DNA of 32,247 nt from contig VBEK01000129.1 of assembly GCA_005889135.1 (NCBI GenBank), positions 1 through 32,247 of the forward strand. Reading direction: 5' to 3'. Positions 2,032-12,082 of the stretch are shown piece after piece (position 1 is the stretch's first letter; each line of letters starts with the position of its first letter). The translations under genes and the position numbers were made by a program. This DNA is from Chloroflexota bacterium. GTDB lineage: Bacteria; Chloroflexota; Dormibacteria; Dormibacterales; Dormibacteraceae. Below the pieces are notes generated by a model. That model worked only from the letters and a program-made list of their open reading frames with translations. It was not told the DNA's origin and searched no databases.

Positions 2032-2850
2032 CTATGCTTCGGCCGCGTACGGCCAGCGCGGCGCGCCCAACTCGCGCGAGATCCCGCGCGCGGCCTCCCC
2101 CACCGCGGCGGCGATTCCCCGGGCCAGGCCTCGGGGGAAGATGCGGTCGGTCGCGTCGACGATGCCGATCGCTCCGACGGCATGGCCTCCGTGATCGAAG
2201 ATCGGCGCCGCGGCGCTCGATTCGCCGAGCACGGCTTCGTCGCGCTCGGTCGCGATGCCGGAGTCGCGAATGACCTGGAGCTCCTGGCGGAGGTTGGCCT
2301 CGCCCAGGGTTTGCTTGGTGAGCCGGGGCAGCGGCTCGGCGAGCAGGTCCTCGACGATCTGGGCCGGCGAGAAGGCAAGCACCGCCTTGCCCAGCGCGCT
2401 GGCGTGCAGAGGCAGCTGGAGCCCGACCTCGAGGATTCCGAACGCCGCGTCCGGGCGGAACACGTGATGCACCACGACGACGCTCGACCCGTGCATGACT
2501 CCCACGCGCACGGCGGCATCGGTCCTTGTCGCCAGGTGGTCCGCGTGCCCGATCGCCCGCGCGCGCAGCTCGTTGAGGTCGAGGTATGAGTAGCCGAGCT
2601 GCAGCAGGCCAGGCCCGAGCTGGTACTTCTCGGAGTACGAGTCCTGCTCGACGAAACCGTGCGCCTGCAGCGTCTGCAGCAGCCCATGGACCGTGGGACG
2701 GGCCAGGCCGAGCCGCTCCGCCAGCTCGCTCACCCCCAGCCGGCGCGGGCCGCTCGCCAGGGCCTTCAGGATCGCCGTCGCCCGGTCGATCGACTGGATC
2801 GAGCTCCGCCGCCTCGCGCTCTCTTTCGGGCCTTCTCTAGTATTCGGCAT
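2032..2850 (-). CDS. IclR-family transcriptional regulator (probable glycerol/dihydroxyacetone regulator)
   Basis: A 272-residue protein from ATG 2850. The N-terminal winged helix-turn-helix (about residues 18-75: SIQSIDRATAILKAL, SELAERLGLARPTVHGLLQTL) is followed by an IclR effector-binding domain (about 90-260) with the typical PLHASALGKAVLAF segment and the AAPIFDHGGHAVGAIGI strand. An upstream in-frame start at 2904 is possible, but 2850 gives the usual N-terminus. The gene diverges from dhaM, and its start codon lies inside a 15-bp inverted repeat that recurs before the aquaporin-dhaKL operon (7662-7676). That suggests autoregulation and control of the whole dihydroxyacetone regulon. 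IclR-type GylR regulators of glycerol genes in Streptomyces are a precedent. The effector (glycerol, glycerol-3-phosphate or dihydroxyacetone) is inferred. Confidence 0.9.
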   Translation of the reverse strand: MPNTREGPKESARRRSSIQSIDRATAILKALASGPRRLGVSELAERLGLARPTVHGLLQTLQAHGFVEQDSYSEKYQLGPGLLQLGYSYLDLNELRARAIGHADHLATRTDAAVRVGVMHGSSVVVVHHVFRPDAAFGILEVGLQLPLHASALGKAVLAFSPAQIVEDLLAEPLPRLTKQTLGEANLRQELQVIRDSGIATERDEAVLGESSAAAPIFDHGGHAVGAIGIVDATDRIFPRGLARGIAAAVGEAARGISRELGAPRWPYAAEA

Positions 2851-2857
2851 TGCTGAA
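2843..2857. promoter_or_regulatory. Candidate IclR operator (iclR/dhaM)
   Basis: TTCGGCATTGCTGAA is a 15-bp inverted repeat with one mismatched pair. It matches 12 of 15 bases of the perfect repeat TTCGACATTGTCGAA at 7662-7676. It covers the iclR start codon and overlaps a possible -35 box of the dhaM promoter, so binding could repress both directions. No other site is shared in this way by the two promoters of the regulon. Confidence 0.6.
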
Positions 2858-2878
2858 TTGTTGTCGATAGTGTAGACT
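2850..2878 (+). promoter_or_regulatory. Possible promoter of dhaM-ptsH
   Basis: TTGCTG at 2850-2855 and TAGACT at 2873-2878 are separated by 17 bases and would start transcription about 40 bases before the TTG start of dhaM. The -35 box lies within the candidate IclR operator. The match to consensus is moderate. Confidence 0.4.
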
Positions 2879-2925
2879 ACGGCCGTCGTCCGGAATTTGC
2901 GCAAGCATCACGGGAGTGGCTTGAT

Positions 2926-3312
2926 TTGGTCGGGATTGTACTGGTCTCCCACAGCTTTGAGCTGGCCCACGGGCTGGCCGCGCTGACCTCCCAGCTGGCG
3001 GGAGACGAGGTCAGGGTGGAGCCCGCCGGCGGCGGTCCAAACGGCACTCTGGGCACGACCGACGACACCGTTCGGGCGGCCATCGCCCGCGCCGACCGCG
3101 GCCAGGGCGTCGTGGTCCTCGCCGACCTCGGCAGCTCCGTCCTCACGGTCCGCCACCTGCTCGAGGAGGGGCACGGCAACGGTCACGTGAGACTGGTCGA
3201 CGCCCCGTTCGTCGAGGGCGCGATCGCGGCGGCCGTGACGTCCTCGGCGGGTCAGGACCTCGAGGATGTCGTCCACGCGGCGGAGGAGGCGCGCGGTGCC
3301 CGCAAGTTCTGA
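2926..3312 (+). CDS. dhaM: DhaM-type EIIA phosphotransfer subunit of PTS-dependent dihydroxyacetone kinase
   Basis: A 128-residue protein with the EIIA-mannose-type fold of DhaM. The phosphorylated His is His9 in GIVLVSHSFELAHGL, followed by GGGPNGTLGTTDDTVRAAI and VVVLADLGSSVLTV, all typical of DhaM. It receives phosphate from HPr and passes it to the ADP bound in DhaL, which phosphorylates dihydroxyacetone held by DhaK. In E. coli DhaM is fused to HPr and EI-like domains; here it is a stand-alone EIIA domain, and HPr is the next, overlapping gene. The TTG start is chosen because GGGAG lies 9 bases upstream and no ATG or GTG in frame fits. It diverges from iclR and converges on ptsI. Confidence 0.9.
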   Translation: MVGIVLVSHSFELAHGLAALTSQLAGDEVRVEPAGGGPNGTLGTTDDTVRAAIARADRGQGVVVLADLGSSVLTVRHLLEEGHGNGHVRLVDAPFVEGAIAAAVTSSAGQDLEDVVHAAEEARGARKF

Positions 3313-3565
3313 GGTGGCGGTGACGCTGCCGGCGGCGGTGGCGCTGCACGCGCGCCCGGCGGCGATGTTCGTCAAGACGGCGATGCGCTTTCGCTGCCGC
3401 GTGACGGTCGGCGTCAACGGCAGGGTGGCCGACGCCAAGAGCATCCTCGCGGTCCTGGCGCTAGGCGCCACGGGCGGCACCCGCCTGGTGCTCGGCGCCG
3501 AGGGCGAGGACGCGCCCGCCGCCCTAGACGCGCTCGCCGCGTGCGTGAGCGGCCTCGTCGAGTAG
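3296..3565 (+). CDS. ptsH: HPr family phosphocarrier protein
   Basis: An 89-residue HPr. The active-site His18 lies in LHARPAAMFVKTA, and the regulatory-Ser region is AKSILAVLALGA (Ser49). It carries phosphate from enzyme I to DhaM. The GTG start at 3296 has GGAGG about 9 bases upstream and gives a normal HPr N-terminus; a longer frame from 3266 would add an odd Arg-rich leader. It overlaps the dhaM 3' end by 17 bases, so the two are coupled. Its own 3' end overlaps the convergent ptsI gene by 42 bases. With no sugar permease in sight, this HPr probably serves the dihydroxyacetone kinase, though other roles elsewhere in the genome are possible. Confidence 0.9.
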   Translation: MPASSEVAVTLPAAVALHARPAAMFVKTAMRFRCRVTVGVNGRVADAKSILAVLALGATGGTRLVLGAEGEDAPAALDALAACVSGLVE

Positions 3566-7833: not shown

Positions 7834-7839
7834 TAGGCT
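7834..7839 (+). promoter_or_regulatory. Possible -10 box for the cimA leader transcript
   Basis: TAGGCT fits the TAnnnT pattern and ends 9 bases before the ATG of the leader peptide, so the transcript would be leaderless or nearly so. No convincing -35 box is seen. Confidence 0.4.
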
Positions 7840-7848
7840 TGCCGCCAC

Positions 7849-7905
7849 ATGCGCATGGTCCGCGCGATCGCCATCGAGATTACCCGGGGAGGTCCCCCGA
7901 CTTAG
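7849..7905 (+). CDS. Isoleucine attenuator leader peptide upstream of cimA
   Basis: An 18-codon reading frame encodes MRMVRAIAIEITRGGPPT. Three of five consecutive codons are Ile (ATC 7867, ATC 7873, ATT 7879). Its 3' third forms the 5' arm of an RNA hairpin (7887-7903) and its stop codon TAG is at 7903-7905. A ribosome stalled at the Ile codons would leave that arm free; a ribosome reaching the stop would cover it. This is the classical layout of a regulatory leader peptide of a branched-chain amino-acid operon. There is no clear Shine-Dalgarno, and translation may begin on a leaderless transcript. Ile is the end product of the pathway started by the downstream enzyme, citramalate synthase. 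Confidence 0.8.
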   Translation: MRMVRAIAIEITRGGPPT

Positions 7906-7935
7906 CGCGCGGCGCCGAAGTCGGTTGGACCTCCC
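7887..7935 (+). promoter_or_regulatory. Antiterminator hairpin of the cimA attenuator
   Basis: The outer stem GGGAGGTCC (7887-7895) pairs with GGACCTCCC (7927-7935). The inner stem CCGACTT (7897-7903) pairs with AAGTCGG (7918-7924). The 3' arm contains most of the 5' arm of the following terminator (7929-7936), so the two hairpins exclude each other. Formation requires a ribosome stalled early on the leader peptide. Confidence 0.8.
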
Positions 7936-7962
7936 GGCCAGAAAGGGTCGGGAGGTTTTTTT
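7929..7962 (+). terminator. Intrinsic terminator of the cimA attenuator, also masking the cimA ribosome-binding site
   Basis: ACCTCCCG (7929-7936) pairs perfectly with CGGGAGGT (7949-7956), and the stem can extend by three more pairs. Seven T residues (7956-7962) follow directly and end at the cimA ATG. The 3' arm GGGAGG is also the cimA Shine-Dalgarno, so the hairpin would both end transcription and block translation. Confidence 0.85.
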
Positions 7963-9529
<1,567 letters not shown>

Positions 9530-9552
<23 letters not shown>

Positions 9553-12082
9553 ACAGACCGCCCGCCAGGAGATTCCTTCCGAGCTGAGGCGCGACGTACG
9601 CCTGCTCGGCGACACGCTCGGCAGGGTCATCGCGGACTACGGCGGCCCGAATCTCCTGCGCGACGTCGAGCGCTTGCGCTCGCTGGTCATCCGCGGCCGC
9701 GAGGACGGACGCTTCGAGCGCCAGGCCGAAAGGCTCGTCGCTTCCTGGAAGCTCGAGCGTGCGGAGCTCGTCGCGCGCGCCTTCTCCGTCTACTTCCACC
9801 TCGCCAACCTCGCCGAGGAGCACCAGCGCGCGCGCGTCATCCGTGAGCGCGACCGCGGTCCTGAGCCGCTTCCCGAGTCCATCGCCGCGACGGTCGATGA
9901 GCTGCGCCCGCGCCTGGGGCGAAAGCGTCTGCGCGATCTCGTCGCCGGCCTCGAGGTCCATCCTGTCTTCACCGCCCACCCCACCGAGTCGCGCAGGCGC
10001 GCGGTCGTGACCGCGATCCGCCGCGTCGGCGACCAGCTCGAGCGGCTGGATGACCCCATGACCTCGGGCTCCGAGCGGGCCGACGCGACCCGGAGGCTGG
10101 CCGAGGAGATCGACACCCTGTGGCGGACCTCGCAGGTTCGGGTCGCGCACGTGCAGCCGCTGGACGAGGTGCGGTCGTTCATGGCCGTCTTCGACGAGAC
10201 GCTGTTCCGCCTGGCGCCCGAGGTCGTGCGCGCCCTGGACGACGGCCTCGGCGGGAACGCGCCGGCCTTTCTGCGTTTCGGGAGCTGGATCGGCGGCGAC
10301 CGCGACGGCAACCCGTCGATCACCGCCCAGGTCACCGACGAAACGATGTCGATCCACGCCGAGCACGCGCTGCTCGCCCTCGAGGCGGTCGCGACGCGGG
10401 TCGGCCGGTCCCTGACCGTTGACGCGCAGACCACTCCTCCTTCGCGCGCCCTCCTGCGCCGGCTGAAGCAGCCTGCGGCCGAGCCGCATCGCCAGTTTCT
10501 TCTCGACGTCGCCGCCCGACTCCGACACACGCGGATGTCGACGCCGACGCAGGGTTATCGCACGGCTCGGGAGCTCATCGACGACCTGCTCACGCTGCAG
10601 TCATCGCTCGCGGCGGCCGGCGCCTCGCGCCTCGCCGGCGGCGAGGTCCAGCACCTCATCTGGCAGGCCGAGACGTTTGGTTTTCACCTCGCCGAGCTGG
10701 AGATCCGGCAGCACAGCCAGGTGTTGCGGCGCGCGCTGGACGAGGTCCGCGCCGGGCGAGCCCGCTCCGAGCTCACACGCGACACCCTCGACCTCCTTGG
10801 TGTGATGGACGCGCTGCAGCGGCGATTCGGCGTCGAGAGCTGCCGCCGGTTCGTGGTCAGCTTCACGCGAAGCGCGGCCGACGTGGCGGCGGTGTATGAG
10901 CTGGCGCATGAGGCAACCGGCGGCAAAGGCCCGACCATCGACGCGGTCCCGCTGTTCGAGACACTGGAGGACCTGGGTCGAGCGACCGTGGTCATGGACG
11001 AGGTGATTCAGCTGCCTGCGGTGCGCGGACGCCTGGCGGCCAACGGTCGGGCGATCGAGGTGATGCTCGGCTACTCGGACTCCGCCAAGGAGATCGGCCC
11101 GCTCTCGGCGACCCTGGCCCTGCACGACGCGCAGGCGGCGCTGACCGCCTGGGCGAGGAAGCGGCGGCTTCGTCTCACCCTCTTCCATGGCCGGGGCGGC
11201 GCCCTGGGAAGGGGCGGCGGTCCGGCCAACAGGGCCGTGCGGGCGCAGGCGCCGGGCTCGGTCGCCGGTCGATTCAAGGTCACCGAGCAGGGCGAGGTGA
11301 TCTTCGCCCGCTACGGCAACCGCGCCATCGCGCGGCGCCACATCGAGCAGGTCACTTCGGCGGTCCTGGAGGCTTCCGCGCCGCTCGCGTCGCGGCGCGA
11401 CCCCGCGCACTCGTTTGGCGAGCTGGCCGCCGCTATCGACGCCCCTTCGCGCTCCGCGTACCGGAGGCTGGTCGAGGCGCCCGGTTTCGAGCGCTGGTTT
11501 GGGCAGGTCAGCCCGGTCGAAGAGCTCGGGCGGCTGCGCATCGCGTCGCGGCCGCAGCGCAGGACGCGCGGCCGGCGGCTGGAGGACCTGCGCGCGATCC
11601 CATGGGTGTTCGCCTGGTCGCAGATGCGCCTCAACCTGGCCGGCTGGTACGGCATCGGCAGCGGGCTGGCGGCGGCGCCGCTGCCGGAGCTGCGCCGCGC
11701 CTACGCGGAGTGGCCGCTGTTCAACGTGATGCTCGACAACGCGGAGATGAGCCTGGCCAAGACCGACCGCCGCATCGCCCAGCGCTACCTTGCGCTCGGC
11801 GACCGGCCCGACCTGGTGCGGATGGTGCTCGAGGAGTACGACCTGACGCTGGACCGGGTGCTGGCCGTGACCGGGCACCGGCGGCTGCTCGAAGACCGCC
11901 GCGTGCTGTCATGGGCGATCGAGCTGCGCAACCCTTACGTCGACGCGCTGTCGCACCTGCAGCTGCGCGCGCTGCGGGCCATGCGCGACCCGAGGACATC
12001 GCGGAGCGACCGGGCGCGGGCCGAGCGCGTGTTTCAGCTCAGCGTCAACGGGGTCGCGGCGGGACTTCAAAACACCGGATAA
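9530..12082 (+). CDS. ppc: Phosphoenolpyruvate carboxylase
   Basis: An 850-residue enzyme, close to the usual 870-950. The catalytic His150 lies in VFTAHPTESRRR, the Arg-rich motif in GSWIGGDRDGNPSI, the PEP/bicarbonate loop in LFHGRGGALGRGGGP (about 558-572), and the conserved C-terminus QNTG is intact. It makes oxaloacetate from PEP and bicarbonate. The start is a TTG inside the cimA end (23-base overlap) with a weak ribosome-binding site, so translation is probably coupled to cimA and the gene should share the isoleucine attenuator. The link makes sense as anaplerosis balanced with amino-acid synthesis, but this is inference. Confidence 0.93.

Follow-up and report, generated by a model that had tools for sequence, protein, structure and literature searches.

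A predicted isoleucine-responsive attenuator upstream of citramalate synthase in Candidatus Dormiibacterota, with a terminator arm that is also the Shine-Dalgarno sequence of the gene

The window, i.e. the whole stretch of DNA that was analysed, comprises 32,247 nucleotides (contig VBEK01000129.1; 69% G+C) from an uncultured Chloroflexota soil bacterium of the family Dormibacteraceae. The following features were identified around the leader of its citramalate synthase gene, cimA.

Upstream of the leader, - strand: divergent MIP-type channel gene (161 bits, below the cut-off of 171.25)
7834-7839, + strand: putative -10 box TAGGCT, separated by 9 nt from the leader ATG; the start site that it implies would lie at about 7845-7849
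7849-7905, + strand: leader peptide open reading frame MRMVRAIAIEITRGGPPT, 18 codons and a TAG stop (sequence inspection, alignment of relatives)
7867-7881, + strand: putative control codons ATC-GCC-ATC-GAG-ATT, with isoleucine at -12, -10 and -8 (positional conservation in family leaders)
7887-7895, + strand: predicted antiterminator 5' arm GGGAGGTCC, inside the leader frame, pairing with 7927-7935
7897-7924, + strand: predicted upper stem of the antiterminator, 7897-7903 with 7918-7924 (folding, covariation)
7927-7935, + strand: shared arm GGACCTCCC, used by either the antiterminator or the terminator (sequence, folding)
7928-7962, + strand: predicted intrinsic terminator, stem 7928-7939/7946-7957 with U7 at 7956-7962 (folding, T7 conservation)
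7950-7955, + strand: GGGAGG, both terminator 3' arm and cimA Shine-Dalgarno (SD) sequence, 7 nt before the ATG at 7963
7963-9552, + strand: cimA, citramalate synthase (TIGR00977, 630.9 bits, cut-off 450; PF00682, PF08502)
9530-12082, + strand: ppc, phosphoenolpyruvate carboxylase (PF00311, 753 bits); start codon uncertain, frame overlapping the end of cimA

The TIGR00977 score confirmed that the gene downstream of the leader encodes a citramalate synthase, as the original prediction had claimed. The ppc product scored 727.3 bits against NF000584, under the cut-off of 815. All elements proposed for the leader were present at their places: the 18-codon peptide, isoleucine at three of five consecutive codons (starting, by sequence inspection, at 7867, 7873 and 7879), a first hairpin (7887-7935) whose 5' arm overlaps the end of the peptide, and a terminator hairpin with seven T residues that shares an arm with the first hairpin. 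Folded alone, the antiterminator reached -37.8 kcal/mol (z = -3.75) and the terminator -24.1 kcal/mol (z = -4.76), with 0 of 200 shuffled sequences as good in both cases; the whole window leader folded less strikingly (z = -1.57; 16 of 200 shuffles as good). The core of the leader occurred once in the window's own genome, when up to three mismatches were allowed. Since three or more isoleucines would turn up by chance among 17 codons of one sequence with a probability of about 0.03, a single leader would be weak evidence, and conservation decides.

A covariance model built from 25 leaders was searched in 110 genomes of the class. The leader was found in 29 of the 42 genomes of the window's family, and a second family contributed 15 further genomes with this RNA; these leader-bearing genomes are related, and the counts are not independent. 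Of 37 family genomes submitted to a protein search, 25 had a cimA orthologue (in three only in pieces); across these 37, tested for both, the leader was present in all 25 with cimA and in none of the 12 without it. A loose DNA pattern matched 40 of the 110 class genomes, and the reversed pattern 0 of 110. When 400 genomes drawn from the phylum were searched with model R2, 20 strong matches were obtained, all within the two families, and five weak ones outside them (E = 3.6e-4 to 0.009); among the latter, L185 was the only one in which a leader peptide was recognised by eye, and its arms differ. Elsewhere in the class, seven cimA genes from other families were examined and had no such leader. 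Moreover, the motif was present in 32 stretches, 20 of which belong to MAGs titled Candidatus Dormiibacterota (Dormibacteraeota) or Chloroflexi bacterium, all before cimA, and the remaining 12 to other bacteria; no such leader was seen in three of these 12 (L048, L049, L056).

In all 29 leaders of the window's family, the reading frame ran uninterrupted from an ATG or GTG codon as far as the stop. Their lengths ranged from 17 to 29 codons and varied by whole codons, in frame with a fixed stop, even with about 30 nt inserted (L069). Conserved isoleucine codons upstream of cimA homologues had been named as a check of the original prediction and were indeed found: isoleucine occupied codon -8 in all 29 family leaders, codon -10 in 27 (it is missing there in L117, for example) and codon -12 in 25. 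Codon -8 was ATT in 28 of the 29 leaders, and ATT accounts for 5 of the 185 isoleucine codons in eight window genes. The use of this rare codon as the last control codon (7879-7881 in the window, and in relatives) might be related to slow decoding or to a lack of structure.

The original prediction had also taken ppc to be apparently in one transcript with cimA. This arrangement held in 21 of the 25 genomes with enough flanking sequence, where ppc followed cimA, and failed in 4 of the 25, which retain the leader and lack ppc after cimA; the leader therefore tracks cimA, and ppc is not essential.

In all 44 leaders (29 of the family and 15 of the second family) a TANNNT box preceded the leader start by 7-12 nt, the box having served to pick the start in 18 of them (second family and L115-L117) and not in the other 26. 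The leader peptide is therefore probably leaderless. In the 20 nt that precede the leader start, SD-like purines were observed in 1 of 29 family leaders and 2 of 15 leaders of the second family (3 of 44). Translation from a leaderless or nearly leaderless end, at a start site placed by the box, is probably the simplest reading of these sequences; it goes beyond the original prediction, which had missed it.

The terminator, the U tract and the start of cimA were joined as GAGG-T7-ATG in all 29 family leaders, T7 being kept in 26 of 26 and in three further family leaders. The terminator 3' arm GGGAGG is also the SD sequence of cimA and U7 is the spacer between this sequence and the AUG, so that a single hairpin should block both transcription and translation. 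This fusion, likewise missed in the original prediction, makes for a compact design, with one hairpin able to act at both levels. It was kept in the second family in a less exact form, with T6C, T7C or T8 before ATG, T7 before GTG, and TCTTTTC in L109.

Compensatory changes had been expected in both stems; they were found in the antiterminator between the two families, and little in the terminator. Within the family, two-sided compensation was observed in 0 of 18 antiterminator pairs, which is no better than in shuffles, because the stem hardly varies there; the terminator showed two-sided change in 1 of 10 pairs. Between families (33 of the 44 sequences, from both families), the antiterminator exhibited 36 two-sided cells, as compared with 10.3 (sd 3.6) in shuffles, these cells counting sequences, not events, and deriving in large part from the split between families. 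Slid controls gave at most 15 such cells. Moreover, 94.6% of the antiterminator cells were paired, versus 89.5 in shuffles, and 0 of 500 shuffles reached either value. Two of the five measures were not above shuffles, namely pairs changed on both sides (4 versus 2.9; reached by 101 of 500) and pair types (14 versus 14.2). The terminator signal between families was weak (1 of 9 pairs, 2 cells).

Both hairpins folded in all 44 loci examined (26 family leaders and 18 further sequences), the weakest terminator of the first family being that of L006 (-17.8). At equilibrium, with the full U7 and no ribosome, the terminator was favoured in the window genome (0.87 versus 0.13) and the outcome among relatives was mixed, which is why the model proposed below relies on folding during transcription. 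Equilibrium folding with a ribosome placed at each codon through U7 was indecisive, and the order of transcription was modelled instead. In this cotranscriptional scan the transcript ended before the terminator 3' arm, the ribosome covered 6, 8 or 10 nt beyond the A site, and values were averaged over the 29 family and the 15 second-family leaders. With the 8-nt footprint, the antiterminator formed when the A site was at codon -8 or earlier (means of 0.65 to 1.0) and not from -7 on. One codon past -8, the means of the first family dropped from 0.65 to 0 and from 0.19 to 0 with the 8- and 10-nt footprints, respectively; with 6 nt the drop came one codon later, the choice between 6 and 10 nt thus shifting the edge by about one codon. 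The last isoleucine codon sits at the edge of the ribosome positions that permit the antiterminator in the scan. Two leaders were exceptions at codon -8, L012 (0.12) and L019 (0.17), the latter reaching only 0.35-0.40 at most earlier codons. Apart from these two weak cases, the modelled placement of the control codons is such that a ribosome stalled on them would free the antiterminator arm and a ribosome at the stop codon would cover it.

Overall, an isoleucine-rich leader frame, two mutually exclusive hairpins with a common arm, the codon placement described above and a predicted intrinsic terminator with a U tract were found together in front of a gene of the pathway that the control codons specify. 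This is very probably a ribosome-mediated, isoleucine-responsive attenuator of cimA, usually together with ppc. RNA polymerase would begin a short distance ahead of the leader ATG and produce a transcript whose leaderless 5' end is loaded by a ribosome. If charged tRNA-Ile runs short, this ribosome would stall with an isoleucine codon (-12, -10 or -8) in the A site, leaving the arm 7887-7895 free to pair with 7927-7935; the terminator would be blocked, the polymerase would read on and the cimA SD sequence GGGAGG would be exposed. When isoleucine is plentiful, the ribosome would reach the stop at 7903 and cover the 5' arm, the terminator would form and the polymerase would stop in U7, immediately ahead of the cimA AUG; should some transcripts escape, the same hairpin would also hide their SD sequence. 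The switch between stalling and reaching the stop is the logic put forward in the original prediction, and it is supported by the conserved isoleucine codons, the two hairpins in 44 loci and the covariation between families. Isoleucine supply by the citramalate route would thereby come under the control of charged tRNA-Ile.

The terminator hairpin might instead work only at the level of translation, hiding the SD sequence until the ribosome on the leader frees it, while transcription would terminate rarely or never. GGGAGG was, by inspection, the only SD-like sequence at a normal distance from the cimA AUG in all 29 leaders, and attenuators that have an SD-hiding structure in place of the terminator are in print, in the parts concerned of PMC9413887, as are SD-hiding ileS T-boxes, in those of PMC1262725. 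However, an SD spacer needs no T tract, and T7 was kept in 26 of 26 leaders although the window is so rich in G+C; the preservation of this tract argues that termination, and not hiding alone, is selected, and a hairpin followed by a U tract is the textbook form of an intrinsic terminator. We consider purely translational control unlikely. At the opposite end, a fixed terminator or an insulation of the start site, without regulation, would agree with the equilibrium fold of the window leader, which favours the terminator. Yet the upstream gene is divergent, so there is no incoming transcript to stop, and a terminator between the promoter and the AUG of one and the same gene, with a covarying alternative hairpin, would make no sense if unregulated, which renders this explanation very improbable.

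The strongly conserved, palindromic arms could also belong to a riboswitch, a T-box or a protein operator that binds a ligand, a tRNA or a regulator, the reading frame being incidental. However, no Rfam family reached its threshold in the window, and a permissive scan returned only weak matches, with nothing convincing and no T-box or riboswitch at the gathering threshold. The isoleucine codons, moreover, hold their position while leader lengths change by whole codons, and the control codons follow the downstream gene; an incidental frame is thus scarcely to be expected. The leader frame might finally encode a small protein with a function of its own, and the ending GGPPT is common among relatives. 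This ending nevertheless varies (FPT, SPT, RET, PAT, PLT) while the DNA mostly remains compatible with pairing, and the N-terminal half is poorly conserved, so that we give this last possibility hardly any credence.

Returning to the attenuator reading, we compared the leaders of the second family, which the original prediction had missed and in which control codons -8 and -10 hold their position as in the first. Fourteen of these leaders precede a threonine-synthase paralogue and have Met-(Met/Ile)-Met as control codons; in the remaining one, which precedes ilvB, they are Ile-Val. The Met-type leaders read ..M(M/I)M, two variable codons and GGF.., with methionine at -8 and -10 in 14 of 14. 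In the single ilvB case (G039), with the leader MCSTRIRGIVGPGGSRT, the RNA precedes an open reading frame of 85 amino acids, which matched no family, and then ilvB (TIGR00118, 627.9 bits).

The gene downstream of the Met leaders was above the TIGR00260 cut-off (167.1) in seven of the nine genomes tested (258 to 285 bits; 264.9 for L101), the other five of the 14 being judged by the look of the sequence. In the two exceptions, the gene was cut by the contig end (G057) or split in two frames (G062). At least two genes over the cut-off were present in 18 of 20 genomes of four families, G057 and G062 having one. The gene next to the best-scoring copy resembled, by eye, a homoserine kinase in five of the six loci inspected. 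Next to the other copy, ThiS-like and NIL-like genes were found in L173 of the first family (PF02597, PF09383) and, by eye, in L175 (G059); a NIL-like gene was also next to it in L172, from the window's own genome. At the Met-leader loci themselves, the gene following the threonine-synthase paralogue is a different one. A homocysteine-forming homologue of threonine synthase has reportedly been described.

On balance, we lean somewhat towards the view that a single attenuator chassis is common to these two families of Candidatus Dormiibacterota, with a leaderless leader peptide, a GGAGG antiterminator, a terminator 3' arm that is the SD sequence and a U tract that is the spacer between this sequence and the AUG. 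Such a chassis would control transcription and translation simultaneously and would be re-specified by its control codons, i.e. isoleucine for cimA, methionine for the threonine-synthase paralogue and isoleucine-valine for ilvB. The Met version would then be a methionine-codon attenuator, marking the paralogue as an enzyme of the methionine route (homocysteine-forming), as the ThiS and NIL neighbours in relatives suggest; this methionine role is what we infer, and the match of codon and pathway is in this version partly deduced. The Met version points to a methionine role for a gene annotated as threonine synthase. A conserved RNA whose control codons differ according to the gene that follows provides a natural test of attenuator specificity, and such leaders can suggest gene functions in a phylum with few cultured members.

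The logic proposed here is classical, and leaderless leaders and SD-hiding attenuators are already in print. In the thr, ilv, leu and his leaders of Escherichia coli, the position of the ribosome picks the antiterminator or the terminator, as in our model; unlike here, these leaders have SD sequences, and their terminator lies well before that of the structural gene. Leaderless polycysteine attenuators with a short reading frame and runs of the codon of the sensed amino acid have reportedly been described in mycobacteria (Canestrari, in 2020); the present leaders resemble them in the repeated codons of the sensed amino acid and probably in the leaderless frame, the amino acid there being cysteine. 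For Corynebacterium glutamicum ilvBNC, Morbach et al. are said, by the title of their 2000 paper, to have reported leader peptide formation without a ribosome binding site. Leaderless mRNA initiation at the same leader is discussed in parts of PMC11857589, where the attenuator is described, like ours, with branched-chain control codons and an overlapping antiterminator and terminator. It differs, according to the same parts, in that it serves acetolactate synthase with leucine and valine codons and has an anti-antiterminator, whereas the present leader serves cimA with isoleucine codons only and no conserved third hairpin was established in it.

The actinobacterial ilv leaders, including ilvB1NC of Mycobacterium tuberculosis, likewise have short frames with runs of isoleucine, valine and leucine codons that overlap terminator hairpins; they concern another gene and lineage, and the relevant sections of PMC1262725 and PMC13236596 do not mention a terminator arm with an SD sequence in it. 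Sections of PMC9413887 and PMC4833913 (the latter citing Lopatovskaya 2010) outline attenuators that make the ribosome binding site inaccessible, the regulatory hairpin covering the SD sequence, as here; in those sections, however, the hiding structure replaces the terminator, whereas a single hairpin looks like both in our leaders. According to the part concerned of PMC2965389, a survey of 2010, its authors knew of leader-peptide systems demonstrated in Proteobacteria and Actinobacteria only, until they found one in Firmicutes. Among the matches listed in the open-licence literature, no description of a leader-peptide attenuator was found for this lineage or for cimA; the original prediction had suggested that such a leader might be undescribed in the lineage. 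The open-licence literature searched likewise yielded no report of the chassis as a whole, of cimA as its target or of the Met version, and no paper on isoleucine leader peptides in Chloroflexi, methionine-codon attenuation or threonine attenuation in Patescibacteria. One paper that joins citramalate synthase and a leader peptide is, in its matching part, about a methanogen and was set aside as unrelated.

Other leaders were also seen. In the first family, ilvB had a leader rich in leucine, valine or isoleucine codons in all six genomes in which the gene was found, out of seven searched (L195 (G000:C49), L190, L191, L194, L196 and L197). Its GGGGGC/GCCCCC/GGGGGC arms folded in the five leaders tested, which makes it a second attenuator-like leader of different sequence in the same genome. 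Upstream of ilvB in L193 (G059:C67) and L198 (G039:C13), we observed the letters GGTGGTACCGCG, which we take to be similar to the T-box motif and which reached no Rfam threshold.

Leader peptides, most of them rich in leucine or isoleucine, were present in several of the other bacteria carrying the motif: L038, L040, L041, L057 and L062 (Ca. Daviesbacteria), L066 (Patescibacteria group), and L042 and L044 (bacterium). They had the same arms and GGGAGG-T7, and their downstream genes were small or of no assigned function; the two tested, in L062 and L066, had no Pfam match. In L185 (G245:C19), at 1501-1599, a leader MPRFFWGYYYFTFSRHPGGLGMA that is by eye rich in phenylalanine, tryptophan and tyrosine, with CCTCCC/GGGAGG arms, precedes a DAHP synthase gene (PF00793); it resembles an aromatic attenuator and comes from a further family of the phylum. 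Finally, L059 (JACPKY010000002.1, Ca. Gottesmanbacteria) has on its - strand, just upstream of the open reading frame 2467-3369, a leader MVLRRLRNLIVTTTTTSTKEVS with five consecutive threonine codons. Its arms are GGAGGTC/GACCTCC/GGGAGG-T7, and it precedes an amino-acid kinase (PF00696) and a homoserine dehydrogenase (PF00742); it looks like a thrL-type threonine attenuator in a bacterium of the candidate phyla radiation.
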